A stretch of DNA of 51,880 nucleotides, from the NCBI GenBank assembly GCA_021792455.1, contig JAJYUP010000010.1:1-51880 (forward strand). The letters are read 5' to 3'. The stretch is from Actinomycetes bacterium. GTDB lineage: Bacteria > Actinomycetota > Thermoleophilia > Solirubrobacterales > Solirubrobacteraceae. Below, piece after piece: positions 46,428-51,880 of the stretch. Position numbers and translations under genes: made by a program. Each line of letters opens with the position of its first letter. Positions within the stretch are counted from its first letter, which is position 1. The notes beneath the pieces were generated by a model. It saw nothing but the letters and a program-made list of their open reading frames with translations, did not search any database and was not told the DNA's origin.

Positions 46428-47293
46428 GTGCAGAAGCGCGAGAACCCCTACACGCCCGGCGCAGGCCGCAAGCCGCCGATGCTCGCTGGGCGTGACGCAG
46501 ACCTCGAGAACTTCCAAGGACTGATCGCGCGGCTGGCCTCGGGAGACTATGAGCGCAGCCTGATCTACTCCGGGCTGCGCGGCGTGGGCAAGACGGTTCT
46601 GCTGATGGAGCTCGATGTACTCGCGAGCGAGGCAGGCTGGGCGAGCACCGACGTTCAGGAGGTTGGCTCCCAGCCCGACTTCCGAGTTACGTTCGCGCGG
46701 ATGGCCGCACGACTGCTGCGGGAGATGAGCCGGCGGCATCGGATCAAGGAGCGCGTCGACCGGGCGCTGAGCGTGGTCAAGGCGTTCAGCGTCGTCGCGC
46801 CGGCCGGGGTGCAGTTCAAGCTCGACGTGGACGCCGCCTCCGGGATCGCTGACTCCGGCGATCCGGAGCAGGACCTCTCGGACCTGGTGCAAGAGATAGG
46901 CGAGGTTGCGCAGGCGACCGGCGCCGGCGCGCTGTTCCTGATCGACGAGATGCACAACCTGGACTCTGCATCGTTGGCGGCGATCTGCATCGCGTTTCAG
47001 GCTGTCAGCCGCCGCGGTCTGCCGGTCGCGCTCGTCGGCGCTGGTCTACCCGACCTCCAAGTTCGATTGATGGCGGCCAAGCCGTATGCCGATCGGTTGT
47101 TTGAGTACCACGAACTCGGCCGCCTCGCCGACGCCGCCGCGCGAGCGGCGCTGATCCAGCCCGCCGCAACTCGCGGCGTCGAGTTGGAGGAGCGGGCCGC
47201 TCAAGCGGTGCTGCGCGAGTCGGCCGGCTATCCGTACTTCTTGCAGGAGTACGGCTTGGAGCTCTGGAACCACGCCGAGACCTCGCCGATCAC
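46428..47293 (+). pseudogene. AAA-family ATPase, truncated by an IS3 element
   Basis: About 288 native residues remain. After MLAGRDADLENFQGLIA come Walker A (SGLRGVGKTVLLME, about 48-61), Walker B (ALFLIDEMHNLDS), a sensor-1-like VALVGAGLPDL, and SAGYPYFLQEYGLELWN near the break. This is an Orc/Cdc6-like or AAA_16 ATP-binding protein of the kind found in accessory regions. Its end is replaced at 47294 by the left end of an IS3 element; the frame continues to 47477 only by chance. The missing C-terminal part should lie beyond the window's right edge, past the IS3 right end. Confidence 0.82.
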
Positions 47294-47317
47294 TGGACCT
47301 CCCCCGGTTTCGTGGAG

Positions 47318-47620
47318 TCAGGTTGCTGTTGTCGTAGTAGCTGTGGATAACCCTCGGTTATCAACAGTTTTTTCGCGCGCGCCCGCGCGTGTGCCCGCGC
47401 GCGCGAGGCCGTCGGGGTCGCCGGCGGCGTGGTCCTCCTCGTACTCGACAGGGGAGCGCATCCCGAGCGTGCTGTGAAGCCGGATCGGGTTGTAGAACCC
47501 CTCGATGTACTCAAAGATCGCCGAGCGCAGCTGGGCGCGGGTCGCCCAGCCGCCCGGCGGCGGGTCGTGCAGGAGCCTCTCCTTGGTCAGGGTCGCGAAG
47601 AACGTCTCCGCGACCGCGTT
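47318..47620 (-). pseudogene. IS3 orfB transposase, C-terminal fragment
   Basis: The minus strand from 47620 reads NAVAETFFATLTKERL, then TRAQLRSAIFEYIEGFYNPI and RLHSTLGMRSPVEYEE, the standard C-terminal end of IS3 OrfB with the catalytic Glu in NAVAE. Its N-terminal part is at 50965-51647. Joined at the shared AA dinucleotide the two give an unbroken 327-codon frame. Confidence 0.92.
47342..47376. other. Hairpin of two DnaA-box-like 9-mers followed by T-run
   Basis: TGTGGATAA (47342-47350, exact complement of TTATCCACA) and TTATCAACA (47358-47366) face each other, with GATAACC/GGTTATC pairing, and TTTTTT follows at about 47368-47373. It could be a plus-strand terminator at the IS3 end or DnaA-binding sites. 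An alternating CG-rich tract follows (47374-47405). Confidence 0.5.
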
Positions 47621-47673
47621 GGCATTCGCCTTCGACTGCGCTCGATCGGCCGGTTGAGCAGCGGACCGTTCGG

Positions 47674-47952
47674 GTGAACCATCCGTTCCATCCTTGGTGC
47701 GGGCGCGAGCTTTGCTTCGTTGCCGTGCGGCAGACCTGGGGCGAGGACCGCGTCTTCTTCACCGATGATGAGGGGCGGCTTCGCTCGCTGCCCAGGGCTT
47801 GGACGGACGCCGCCGATGTCGATCCGGTCGTGGCGCTCGCAGCGGGGCGAAGTGCCTTCCGGGTTGAGGATCTGCTGGAGCTCGCGGAGCTGCTCGATCG
47901 GCTTGGTCGCGCTGGCGAAGACGGCGAGGGCGTCAAGGAGATTATGCCGTGA
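47674..47952 (+). CDS. DUF5372-type protein
   Basis: The protein is 92 aa from GTG 47674, the only usual start inside the element for this frame. It matches the family pattern HPFHPWCGRELCFVAVRQTWG, EDRVFFTDDEGRLRSLPRAW and DPVVALAAGRSAFRVEDLLE. I recognise it as DUF5372, a small protein that travels with serine-recombinase elements in many bacteria. Function is unknown; a beta-rich N-terminal half and helical end suggest DNA or protein binding. First gene of the element, with no good ribosome-binding site. Confidence 0.8.
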   Translation: MNHPFHPWCGRELCFVAVRQTWGEDRVFFTDDEGRLRSLPRAWTDAADVDPVVALAAGRSAFRVEDLLELAELLDRLGRAGEDGEGVKEIMP

Positions 47953-48064
47953 GTGTAAATAGGATTGCGCCGGCGGGCTTGCGCATGCCGCTCGGCTTGT
48001 CATCAGCGTCTTTCAGAGTTCGCAGTCTGAGAGCGATAATGAGGCGGTCGACGGCATCCTGCGC

Positions 48065-48098
48065 GTTGTTCCGTCCGCTAGGGGCGGCATAATGCTCT
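48065..48098 (+). promoter_or_regulatory. Possible promoter TTGTTC-16-CATAAT
   Basis: TTGTTC and CATAAT are spaced by 16 bases about 30 bases before the HTH gene. This is a modest sigma-A-like match in the 169-base gap after DUF5372, which has no other feature. Confidence 0.3.
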
Positions 48099-48121
48099 TG
48101 ACATCAATTGGAGGAGCGGCC

Positions 48122-48604
48122 ATGGCGCACTCGAGCGAAGATCCGAAGGTCAAGGCGCTGGCAGCGGAGCGCAGCCTCAACCCGCGCCCGCAGGCGGTCA
48201 GTGATGAGCAGTTCGCCTGCCAAGAGTTCCTGGACGCCCGCGATCTCGTGCAGGTCAAGTATGAGATGGTCCGCAGAGCGCGCGTGGAGGGGCAGAGCGT
48301 CTCGGCGGCGGCACGCTCCTTTGGCCTCTCGCGGCCGTCGTTCTATGCCGCCGCCGCAGCACTGGAGCAGGGCGGGCTGCAGGCGCTTCTGCCGCGCAGG
48401 CCCGGCCCGCGCCGCGCGCACAAGCTCAGCGGGGAGATCCTGGCGTTCGTGCGCGAGCGCCTCGCCAACGATGAGTCCTTGAGGGCGGCCGACATGGTGG
48501 AGGTGATCCAAGAGCGCTTCGGCGTGCGCGTTCACCCGCGTTCGATCGAGCGAGCGCTCAGCCGCTCAGAGCACCCCAAAAGTGGCGGAGGAGGCGAACG
48601 GTGA
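48122..48604 (+). CDS. Helix-turn-helix protein of the serine-recombinase element
   Basis: The protein is 160 aa from ATG 48122, with GGAGGAG 6 bases upstream. A transposase-type HTH lies in the middle: YEMVRRARVEGQSVSAAARSF followed by GLSRPSFYAAAAALEQGGL, then LPRRPGPRRAHKLSGEILAF and a second helix set (ADMVEVIQERFGVRVHPRSIERAL). This is the layout of the N-terminal DNA-binding part of IS630-like transposases, without a catalytic domain. It probably binds element ends or regulates the operon. The next gene overlaps its 3' end by 23 bases. Confidence 0.78.
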   Translation: MAHSSEDPKVKALAAERSLNPRPQAVSDEQFACQEFLDARDLVQVKYEMVRRARVEGQSVSAAARSFGLSRPSFYAAAAALEQGGLQALLPRRPGPRRAHKLSGEILAFVRERLANDESLRAADMVEVIQERFGVRVHPRSIERALSRSEHPKSGGGGER

Positions 48605-48866
48605 TCGCAGCGACGCCGGCGGCGATGTCGAGCGCTATGAGCAGCTTCGCGCGCGGGCGCTCGCCGGCGAGGAGGAGACCTTCAGGATGGGGCTCGCTCT
48701 CTTTTATGCCCGCGGCCTCGCGGCGTGGGCGCGAGAGCTCAGAAGCATCGCCGCAGCACCTCCCGCCGTGGCCGAGCGGGGCGATGCCGGCGAGCTTGAC
48801 GGCAACCGGCGCGATCTGGTCGCTGTGCTCACCACGATGGCGCTGGCGAGCATGGGCGAGGGGTGA
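48582..48866 (+). CDS. Small helical protein of the serine-recombinase element
   Basis: A 94-aa protein starting at a GTG within the HTH gene (GAACGG context) and ending 6 bases before the recombinase start. It is acidic and mostly helical (ERYEQLRARALAGEEETFRM; LALFYARGLAAWARELRSI; DLVAVLTTMALASMGEG). No family is recognised. Overlap on one side and tight spacing on the other imply translational coupling, so it may be a recombination directionality factor-like or accessory protein, by inference. Confidence 0.6.
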   Translation: MAEEANGDRSDAGGDVERYEQLRARALAGEEETFRMGLALFYARGLAAWARELRSIAAAPPAVAERGDAGELDGNRRDLVAVLTTMALASMGEG

Positions 48867-48872
48867 TCATCG

Positions 48873-50921
48873 GTGAGCGAGCTGCAAGGCGCCGCGGGCA
48901 AGGTGCAGGCGGCCCACCTGCAGCGCACCGCCTATCTGTATGTGCGCCAGTCGAGCCTGCGGCAGGTGATCCACAACACCGAGTCGGCCAAGCGCCAATA
49001 CGCGCTGCGTCGGCGTGCGACCGCGCTCGGCTGGCCCTCCGAGCGGATCGTCGTGATCGATTGCGACCAGGGCCACTCCGGCGCGCAGGCCACGGACCGG
49101 GAGGGCTTCAAGCGCCTGGTCGCCGAGGTCGGGATGGGAAACGCCGGGATCGTCGCGGGACTGGAGGTCTCCCGGCTTGCGCGCAACAACGCCGACTGGC
49201 ACCGCCTGCTGGAGCTCTGCGCGCTCTCAGAGACGCTGATCTGCGACGAGGACGGGCTCTATGACCCGACCGACTTCAACGACCGCCTGCTGCTCGGCTT
49301 GAAGGGCACGATGTCCGAGGCCGAGCTTCACTTCATCCGCGCCCGCCTGCAGGGCGGGATCCTCTCCAAGGCGCGCCGCGGCGAGCTGCAGATGGCACTG
49401 CCGGTCGGCCTCGTCTATGACCCTGCCGGCAAGGTGGCCCTCGACCCCGACCGGGGTGTGCAGCGCGCGCTTGCCCACCTCTTCTGGCTCTTCGAGCGCA
49501 CCGGCTCCGCGCGCGCGGTGGTCAAGGCCTTCAACGACGAGGGGCTGCTGTTCCCAGTCAGGATCAGAACCGGGCAGCGCAAGGGCGAGCTCTGCTGGAT
49601 GCCTCTGCGCCACTGGCGCGCCAGGCGCACCCTTCAGAACCCGCGCTATGCCGGCGCCTTCGCTTATGGCCGCAAGCGGCAGCGCAAGCGCGCCGACGGG
49701 AAGATCACCGTGCAGAAGCGCCCACGCGAGGAGTGGACGCTGATCAGAGACGCCCATCCGGGATACATCAGCTTCGAGCGCTACGAGCAGAACATAAAGA
49801 GGCTTGCCACCAACGCGCGCGCACACGGCTCAGAACGAACGGCCGGCCCGCCGCGTGAGGGACCGGCGCTCCTGCAGGGGCTTGCGATCTGCGGGCGCTG
49901 TGGGCGGCGGATGACGGTCAGCTATCACCGCCGGCGCGGCGCGCTCGCGCCCGACTACAACTGCAAAAGGGAGAGCATCGAGAGCGCGAGCGAGCAATGC
50001 ATGCACATCCCCGGCCAGAGCGTCGACGAAGCGATCGCCCAGCTGCTGCTCGACACCGTCACGCCGCTCGCCCTCGAGGTCGCGCTCGCGGTCAGGGCGG
50101 AGCTCGAGGCCCGCGCCTGCGAGGCCGACGCGCTCAGGCAAAGCCATGTGCAGCGCGCCCGACAGCGCGCCGAGCTCGCCCGCCGCCGCTATCTGCAGGT
50201 CGACCCCGACAACCGCCTCGTCGCCGACACGCTCGAGGCTGACTGGAACGACGCGCTGCGCTGCCTGCAGGCCGCCCAAGAAGAGTATGAGCACCAGAGC
50301 GCGGCAGCCAAAGAGCAGCTCTCCGACGAGCAGAAGCAGCGCATCCTGGCGCTCGCGCAGGACTTCCCCGCCCTCTGGGCAAACCCCGCGACGCCGCAAC
50401 GCGAGCGCAAGCGGATCGTGCGCCTGCTGATCGAAGACGTCACGCTCCAGCGCACCGATCGCATCCACCTGCACGTGCGCTTCCGCGGCGGGCAGAGGAG
50501 GACGCTCACGATCCCGATCCCGCTCAGCGCCTGGAAGGAGCGCCAGACCGACCCCGAGACGTTCGCAATGGTCGACCGACTGCTCGACGAGCACACCGAC
50601 GCCGAGACAGCCGCCAAGCTCAACCAAGCCGGACCACGCTCCGGGATGGGCAAGCCGTTCACCGCCCAAATCGTGCTCCACCTGCGCCGCGCCCACGGAC
50701 TGCAAAGCCATGCCGAGCGACTCCGCGCGCGTGGCCTGCTCACACTCAGCGAGACCGCCCGGCAACTCGGCGTTCACACCGGCACGATCAAGGCATGGCA
50801 GCGCGCGGGTCTGCTGGAATCAGAGAAGGCCAACGACAAGAATGAGCGGCTGTTCGTGCCGCCCGGCCCCGGCGACCCCAGACTCGTCAAGCGCCTCGGC
50901 TGGCGACTCGACAGGCGATAA
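48873..50921 (+). CDS. Large serine recombinase
   Basis: The 682-aa protein starts at a GTG (GGGGTG upstream). The resolvase domain begins TAYLYVRQSSLRQVIHN with catalytic Ser27, and continues VAGLEVSRLARNNADWHRLL and GTMSEAELHFIRARL. The recombinase domain follows (GSARAVVKAFNDEGL; LQNPRYAGAFAYGRKR). A zinc-ribbon (AICGRCGRRMTVSYH ... CKRESIESASEQC) comes next, then a long coiled coil (QRARQRAELARRRYLQVDPD). Unusual is an extra C-terminal MerR-like HTH (LSETARQLGVHTGTIKAWQR, about 630-670). It would cut and exchange strands at a 2-base core. The gene appears intact. Confidence 0.93.
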   Translation: MSELQGAAGKVQAAHLQRTAYLYVRQSSLRQVIHNTESAKRQYALRRRATALGWPSERIVVIDCDQGHSGAQATDREGFKRLVAEVGMGNAGIVAGLEVSRLARNNADWHRLLELCALSETLICDEDGLYDPTDFNDRLLLGLKGTMSEAELHFIRARLQGGILSKARRGELQMALPVGLVYDPAGKVALDPDRGVQRALAHLFWLFERTGSARAVVKAFNDEGLLFPVRIRTGQRKGELCWMPLRHWRARRTLQNPRYAGAFAYGRKRQRKRADGKITVQKRPREEWTLIRDAHPGYISFERYEQNIKRLATNARAHGSERTAGPPREGPALLQGLAICGRCGRRMTVSYHRRRGALAPDYNCKRESIESASEQCMHIPGQSVDEAIAQLLLDTVTPLALEVALAVRAELEARACEADALRQSHVQRARQRAELARRRYLQVDPDNRLVADTLEADWNDALRCLQAAQEEYEHQSAAAKEQLSDEQKQRILALAQDFPALWANPATPQRERKRIVRLLIEDVTLQRTDRIHLHVRFRGGQRRTLTIPIPLSAWKERQTDPETFAMVDRLLDEHTDAETAAKLNQAGPRSGMGKPFTAQIVLHLRRAHGLQSHAERLRARGLLTLSETARQLGVHTGTIKAWQRAGLLESEKANDKNERLFVPPGPGDPRLVKRLGWRLDRR

Positions 50922-50964
50922 CCCACCCCATCATGCGAAAGAGGTGCGGTGTGAAACCAACGCC

Positions 50965-51647
50965 TTGTCGTAGCAGGTCCCGACGGCGCCCATCGACTGG
51001 GCGATGCCAGCGTCGTGGCAGGCCTGGCCGAACAGCAGGCCGATGAACTGCCCGCCGTGATCAGAATGGTAGATCGTCCCCTTGTCCGGTTTGCGGGCCG
51101 CCACGGCCATCGTGAGCGCGTCGATGACGAGCTCTTGACGCATGTTGGCGTCCATCGCCCAGCCGACGATCCGACGGCTGAACAGGTCCTGCACGGCGGC
51201 AAGGTACAGCCAGCCCTCGCCGGTCCGGATCTGCTTGATGTCCGCCGCCCACACCAGGTTCGGCTGATCGGGCCGGAAGTCTCGGCCGACCAGGTCGGGG
51301 AACGGCTCTACGCCGGGCACGCGGACCGTGCAGCAGTTCCGACGGCGCTGGTGCGCGCCCTCCAGGCCCGCCAGCACCATCAGCCTGGCGACCCGCTTCT
51401 CGCCGACCCGGATCCCCTCACGCGCCAGCATCGCGTGCACGCGCGGGCTGCCGTACCGGCCGCTGCTGGCCTTATGAATCCGGCGGATCTGCTCGGTCAG
51501 CCAGGCGTCAGCGAGCTCGCGGTCCGACGGCGGCCGCGTACACCACGCCCAATAGCCGGACTCAGACACGCCCAGCAGCTCGCACATCAGGGAGACCGGG
51601 TGGGCGCAGTGGGCTCTCTCCGCCGAGATATGCCGGTAGATGCTCAC
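50965..51647 (-). pseudogene. IS3 orfB transposase, N-terminal fragment
   Basis: The minus strand from GTG 51647 (overlapping the orfA stop as GTGA) reads HPVSLMCELLGVSESGYWAW, IRRIHKASSGRYGSPRVHAM, the rve core DQPNLVWAADIKQIRTGEGW with the first Asp and IYHSDHGGQFIG with the second. After VGTCYD the native frame stops at the insertion; the 9 residues that follow (to 50931) belong to the inserted element. The catalytic Glu is on the other fragment, so the transposase is inactive as it stands. Confidence 0.93.
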
Positions 51648-51880
51648 CGGGTCTCGGTCTCCCTCGCGAAGAGAGCCGTGGCGCGCTCGAGGATCTCGCG
51701 CTCCTGCTCGAGGCGCTTGACCTCCCGGCGCAACTCGCGCAACTCCTCGCGCTCGGGGGACGTCAGTCCGTCGTCGCGCTCTCGGCGATCGAGCTGCTCC
51801 TGAGGCACCCAGTTGCGCAACGACTGCCCGGACATCCCCAGCGACTCGGCGACGTCCGGGATCGAGCGCCCCTGACCAAC
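51644..51880 (-). CDS. IS3 orfA (partial, runs off the window)
   Basis: The minus strand from the window edge reads GQGRSIPDVAESLGMSGQSL, RNWVPQEQLDRRERDD and a leucine-zipper-like EELRELRREVKRLEQEREIL, ending ERATALFARETETR. This is the HTH plus coiled-coil OrfA of IS3 elements, which is needed for transposition together with OrfB. The N-terminus is outside the window. The end overlaps orfB by 4 bases. Confidence 0.9.
   Translation of the reverse strand, partial: VGQGRSIPDVAESLGMSGQSLRNWVPQEQLDRRERDDGLTSPEREELRELRREVKRLEQEREILERATALFARETETR

Follow-up and report, generated by a model that had tools for sequence, protein, structure and literature searches.

Why should a four-gene insert lie among the catalytic-motif codons of an IS3 transposase gene? 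The question is raised by a 51,880-nucleotide (nt) stretch from the genome of an Actinomycetes bacterium of the Solirubrobacterales (contig JAJYUP010000010.1, assembly GCA_021792455.1), here called the window, whose final 6 kb are occupied by a split IS3 element and its insert. The 3,346-bp insert splits IS3 orfB at CYD/NAVAE (the slash marks the split), with a TT core common to both junctions. It very probably represents a self-mobilising serine-recombinase transposon whose attachment site (attB), as judged from the sites compared below, is the transposase DNA encoding the region of the catalytic glutamate.

The 5' piece of orfB stops at GTCYD and the gene resumes at NAVAE (Table 1). This piece matches the IS3 model NF033516 (E=6.9e-70, 236 bits, cut-off 160), and the empty site carries the conserved CYDNA..E motif. 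One TT copy is part of the empty site. Deletion of the element at either of its two equivalent placements leaves a single open frame, 404 codons long when counted from the edge of the window and 327 when counted from the GTG at 51647, in which CYDNAVAE is intact. The split of orfB between GTCYD and NAVAE and the 327-codon frame upon excision, both put forward in the original prediction, were thus confirmed by reconstruction of the empty site. The idea of a frame-restoring excision was right for a removal of 3,346 bp, but the interval then given, 47621-50964, was 2 bp short; it keeps both TT copies and therefore does not restore the frame. The codon-level split is not a matter of chance, since related elements in other genomes occupy the same codon.

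Thirty-nine loci of related recombinases (loci are numbered L) were assigned to rve-type (integrase-fold) targets after inspection of their flanks. In 32 of these, including L069, a glutamate follows the core codon on the left side at a distance of exactly four codons (Glu-4); the left flank is absent, truncated or rearranged in the other seven (L005, L027, L047, L048, L053, L067, L075). The tabulation took 31 of the 32 loci, L125 being left out because its target flanks repeat those of L072. In all 31 tabulated TT-core copies the core makes up the opening two bases of a codon that lies four codons ahead of the glutamate, which we take to be the catalytic one of these families. The core reads AA on the coding strand in each of them, and the element is always antisense to the target gene. 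Both halves of the site are present in 30 copies, 27 of these sites being different, while L055 has the left half only. The target motifs are CYD/NAVAE in IS3, SND/NPYSE in IS3-like genes, PKD/KAKVE and variants in IS21 IstA, PQA/KGRVE in ISNCY and RRA/NAYAE or PAE/KGAVE in other rve genes. The earlier proposals that the target is conserved catalytic-motif DNA and that transposase copies provide multiple landing sites are supported by these sequences; six copies (L001, L050, L051, L069, L071, L109) have both sides in an IS3-type orfB at the Glu-4 codon, and L055 has its left side there. The cut-off of the IS3 model is passed by L050, L051 and L071, whereas L109 (125 bits) and L069 (15.5 bits) fall below 160. 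The recombinase frame of L069, on a Rhodococcus opacus plasmid, contains one stop codon.

Left cores were picked by requiring the glutamate, while for the right cores a rule based on the element was used that took no account of the target. On the alignments at hand, the right flanks alone settle that the target position is independent of the glutamate filter. Against the IS3 model, all five of them (L050, L051, L069, L071, L109) end at position 313; against the IS21 model, 7 of 10 (L070, L072, L074, L076, L123, L133, L138) end at position 226. Of the other three IS21 right flanks, L131 is aligned up to 225 and L132 up to 224, which leaves one and two residues of the flank, respectively, and the L052 alignment stops at 215, thirteen residues short. 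No profile match was obtained with the right flanks of L077 and L027; the L077 left flank starts at IS21-model position 229. The left-end register and the comparison of copies in Sinorhizobium fredii NGR234 agree with the right-flank result.

NGR234 harbours eight copies, 98.8-100% matching, in two plasmids. All eight lie at a Glu-4 codon, two in ISNCY and six in IS21-type IstA (for L077 the target was named from the left flank), and a ninth copy of ~80% identity (L124) is also at such a site. A search for empty copies of one NGR234 IS21 target gave none, all five left-flank homologs in the two plasmids being occupied. Similarly, on one Streptomyces plasmid two distinct transposases (L071, L109) are each occupied by the identical recombinase; the equal match scores of L073 and L110 suggest another example of this kind.

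The ends of the element are likewise shared. The right end common to relatives reads about GGTGCAnTRTG, 11 nt, core, and the left end core, 12 nt, CRACTGC. CRANTNC stands exactly 12 nt from the core in 18 of 31 left ends, and 12 further ends keep that register with small changes, as judged by eye. Cores differ between clades: TT in the window clade, GG in L031, TA in L028 and L054 and AC in L029. A 3,354-bp contig of Mycobacterium intermedium (L025) runs from the left TT core to 3 bases past the right core and has TTGTC at both ends, which would be expected if an element is present in several copies at similar targets; a right-end search of that genome for its flanks gave only this contig and a weak 28-base match.

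The DNA itself shows where the element begins and ends, that its empty site is clean, that the target is repeatedly exact to the codon and in one orientation, and that the element has spread to multiple copies. A mechanism may be proposed. We infer an active recombinase that would excise the element as a circle, the junction of which (attP) would read right end-TT-left end. Exchange between attP and attB would then take place at the 2-bp core, through the cutting and rotation typical of serine recombinases. As TT is non-palindromic, the element would enter in one orientation, antisense to the target gene. Since the site belongs to the most conserved DNA of rve transposases, one enzyme could use IS3, IS21, ISNCY and related elements; the chemistry conserved in the target proteins would keep their DNA recognisable from family to family. 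Insertion cuts the transposase short immediately ahead of the last of its catalytic residues and should inactivate the transposase of the host element. Like its relatives in several transposase families, the element has the look of a parasite specialised in other mobile DNA, which it disrupts. The silencing of IS3 put forward in the original prediction accordingly stands as far as the interrupted target gene goes, silencing itself being what such a broken gene would suggest. The DUF5372, helix-turn-helix (HTH) and small proteins perhaps act as directionality or target factors.

The pattern might instead arise from survivorship, a recombinase of loose specificity leaving copies only in dispensable genes such as those of transposases. 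Transposase genes are indeed dispensable and are common beside copies with annotated plasmid records, and apart from the core and the Glu codon the sites show only a modest consensus. Survivorship leaves unexplained, however, the one codon position, strand and core of 31/31 copies across several transposase families, as well as the single profile position. Nor does it explain why the site can be predicted from other families. When a weight matrix was trained on all target families but the tested one and the true site was ranked among ~980 to 1,530 positions, this site came first in 17 of 26 cases and within the top three in 22. Survivorship may contribute to the target pattern, but it gives no fixed codon and strand, and as the whole explanation it is unlikely. 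Specificity for IS3 orfB, the view nearest to the original prediction, draws on the three nearest relatives (L055, L050, L051; 74-71% identity), all in IS3 orfB at the same codon. Yet L052 (69-70%) lies in IS21 IstA and L026 (68%) in another rve gene, and copies of one element use different families, which contradicts this specificity for the clade and makes it very improbable. IS3 is thus a target, but IS21 IstA, ISNCY and other rve genes are used as well. The insertion-site survey of related recombinases suggested earlier came out in the same way: near relatives keep TT and the homologous codon, and non-IS3 targets with different cores occur in distant relatives only. That the element is excised in a programmed manner, restoring its gene during development as in the XisF/fdxN kind, is hardly credible. 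XisF (NF041201) is the best NCBIfam model for the recombinase and excision would restore the frame exactly, but the match reaches only 91 bits against a cut-off of 375, and the many sites, hosts and plasmids and the multi-copy spread fit a transposon.

Several observations count against a transposon that targets the glutamate region. The search for left cores demanded the glutamate and is circular when taken alone; the left terminus of L076 is off-consensus, outside the common register, and its left core depends on that filter. Cores were read by rule at both ends in 31 loci and agreed in 26, of which 18 count, since the general left-end rule chose a wrong internal TT in 8 NGR234 copies; it also failed for L124, and the limits of these nine copies were set by comparing copies. 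The five disagreements concern L055, whose right end is lost, L053, where the rule took an earlier motif (the right core otherwise reads TT), L124 and the distant L064 and L115. With IS3 held out, the true site headed the matrix ranking in just 1 of 5 cases (ranks 2-3 in the other 4), and the worst-ranked true site, that of L077, stood at 33 of 1526. The matrix includes the core and Glu columns, so that what it demonstrates is a site in common, which alone does not amount to a preference of the enzyme; homologous protein motifs could explain the common site DNA as much as preference of the recombinase. The NGR234 pairs L118/L120 and L121/L122 have identical 24-nt half-sites, so that independent insertion events number fewer than 8. 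L065 (the order-wide locus L018, refetched), distant and truncated with no right end found, has a GH15 gene on its left and is the sole apparent host-gene target. Finally, L053 has different transposases on its two sides. Its left flank is an IS701 transposase and its right flank resembles the IS21 IstA of L052; it is perhaps a chimeric copy from recombination between two copies.

Table 1 Features of the split IS3 and its insert (positions in the window)
Feature	Position	Strand	Remarks
Whole element	47621..50966 (equivalently 47619-50964)	+	3,346 bp, from empty-site reconstruction
Left TT core copy	47619..47620	+	12 nt before CGACTGC, register common to relatives
Left terminus	47621..47639	+	12 variable nt, then CGACTGC
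DUF5372 (PF17342) protein	47674..47952	+	probable GTG start
HTH protein	48092..48604	+	resembles N-terminal part of IS630/IS481 transposases, below the cut-offs of those models
Small protein	48582..48866	+	no family above cut-off; homologs in some relatives
Large serine recombinase	48873..50921	+	682 aa; Resolvase, Recombinase, Zn ribbon and C-terminal MerR-like HTH
Right terminus	50943..50964	+	GGTGCGGTGTG plus 11 nt
Right TT core copy	50965..50966	+	11 nt after GGTGCGGTGTG, register common to relatives
Split IS3 orfB, 3' part (NAVAE...)	47375..47620	-	
Split IS3 orfB, 5' part (...GTCYD)	50967..51647	-	
IS3 orfA	51644..51880	-	cut by contig end

The genes of the element are all on the plus strand, in the order DUF5372 protein, HTH protein, small protein and recombinase. 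The latter has domains above cut-off for PF00239 (1e-18), PF07508 (9.8e-14) and PF13408 (4.8e-08), with the catalytic domain at residues 20-171 and the MerR-like HTH at 624-661. By these domains, the 2-bp core common to both ends and the clean empty site, it is classified as a large serine recombinase, in line with the original prediction of a serine-recombinase element with a 2-bp core. DUF4368 was absent from its Pfam hits at E<=1. The DUF5372 protein appears as the Y4bD/Y4pK family in some plasmid records. Its predicted structure is a small beta sheet with a helix (mean pLDDT 81, pTM 0.47), a predicted fold for which no structural match was found at E<=0.001. The likeness of the HTH protein to IS630/IS481 transposases looks as if it had been acquired from a target.

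Relatives are also found beyond rve-type targets. In an order-wide sample of 232 genomes, matches were found at 24 places in 18 genomes, counting the window's own, and a mobile-element gene lay on at least one side in 21 of the 24. Target names rest on model matches of flank pieces, several of them below the curated cut-off for whole proteins; for L005, L007, L008, L017, L024 and the right side of L006 the name was given by eye or taken over from a similar relative that had one. The order-wide targets comprised IS3 (orfB in L001, L002 and L003, another position of orfB in L010, near the orfA-orfB boundary in L012), IS21 IstA (L004, L005, L006), IstB (L011, L017, L022, L023), group II intron reverse transcriptase (L008, L009, L019, L020, L024), an IS91-like gene (L007), a conjugation coupling protein (L013), IS630 (L014) and ISKra4 (L021). 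Loci dropped or without a usable end, flank or flank name were L015, L016, L025, L032, L033, L035, L041, L043, L046, L112, L114, L117, L127 and L144. A draw from the phylum gave relatives in 7 of 396 genomes, own included. Among plasmids 475 records match at 1e-20 and 126 at 1e-120, with rhizobia leading the lists. Phage records gave no match at 1e-30; among viral contigs one stretch fit a pattern, unconfirmed, the single-protein query reaching close relatives only.

The distant recombinases (about 36-57% identity), studied less closely than the TT-core clade and in many cases with cores other than TT, lie in genes for IS66 TnpB (L136, L030; PF05717, NF033819), IS91-type transposase (L031, L028; PF04986), a tyrosine recombinase (L029; PF00589), group II intron reverse transcriptase (L009, L063, L056; PF00078, TIGR04416), IstB, ending at the Walker A region (L011, L064, L023; PF01695, NF038214), coupling protein (L061; PF02534), IS110 (L115; PF01548) and IS4/IS5-type transposases (L037, PF01609; L036, just under the cut-off). 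Singulisphaera copies break IS4/IS5-type genes at the motif known as Y-(2)-R-(3)-E. The near-identical L037 and L040 of Singulisphaera acidiphila break IS5-type transposases at the glutamate codon itself, with core GA. When target labels were placed on a tree of 70 recombinases, 16 changes were required (minimum 9, shuffled mean 34.1, by a quick method), and as few as 16 were seen in 0 of 200 shuffles. Target class thus appears to follow the recombinase tree, against which it weighs that the clustering is helped by near-copies. A broader reading is somewhat favoured, in which a serine-recombinase superfamily lives on other mobile elements as a natural silencer, through attachment sites in conserved, often catalytic or nucleotide-binding, motif DNA. 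Such motifs would be the DDE glutamate (rve, IS4/IS5-type) and the Walker A of IstB and coupling protein, with group II intron reverse transcriptase, tyrosine recombinase, IS66 TnpB and IS91 as further targets.

Transposons of the TnpX/TndX type are small elements moved by a large serine recombinase, and XisF, the recombinase of the fdxN element, serves a single developmental site. The present element resembles the former in size and enzyme, but differs by the missing DUF4368 hit and by a target that is a defined codon; from XisF, although its nearest NCBIfam model, the recombinase is separated by a score far under the cut-off. One study names TndX, reports DUF4368 in most members of the TnpX/TndX multi-targeting clade, and describes a TT core for one multi-targeting enzyme and a single conserved coding-sequence site for others (PMC10083194). 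Large serine recombinases and serine integrases share with the element a 2-bp core and insertion inside genes, while most of the multi-targeting clade differs from it in having DUF4368 (PMC10083194). IS607-family elements are also transposons of serine chemistry (PMC4058570, PMC6188088), but have the DNA-binding domain N-terminal to the catalytic one, whereas here the resolvase domain is N-terminal and followed by a long C-terminus. In helper-embedded satellites an integrase clade likewise repeatedly attacks genes of another mobile element, yet these satellites reside in prophages and target late genes, not transposase catalytic codons (PMC10111431). No description of such targeting, and no mention of DUF5372, was found in the literature searched, most subscription journals and ISfinder being outside the reach of the search.

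If the proposed targeting is true, the element exploits catalytic codons, which transposases can hardly change, to find and disable many insertion sequences. This would be relevant to the way in which the numbers of insertion sequences are kept low and to the evolution of new targets by recombinases, and would make available a series of recombinases, diversified in nature, whose attachment sites are related and well defined. Should the superfamily reading hold too, conserved protein chemistry becomes a widely shared landing pad.

In the genome of the window seven IS3 matches were found, including the window's own, and a pattern search gave an intact motif in one of them (L151). Next to the split IS3, an AAA ATPase frame (PF13191) at 46428-47477 runs into the apparent IS3 end near 47294, placed by eye, and seems to be interrupted by the IS3.

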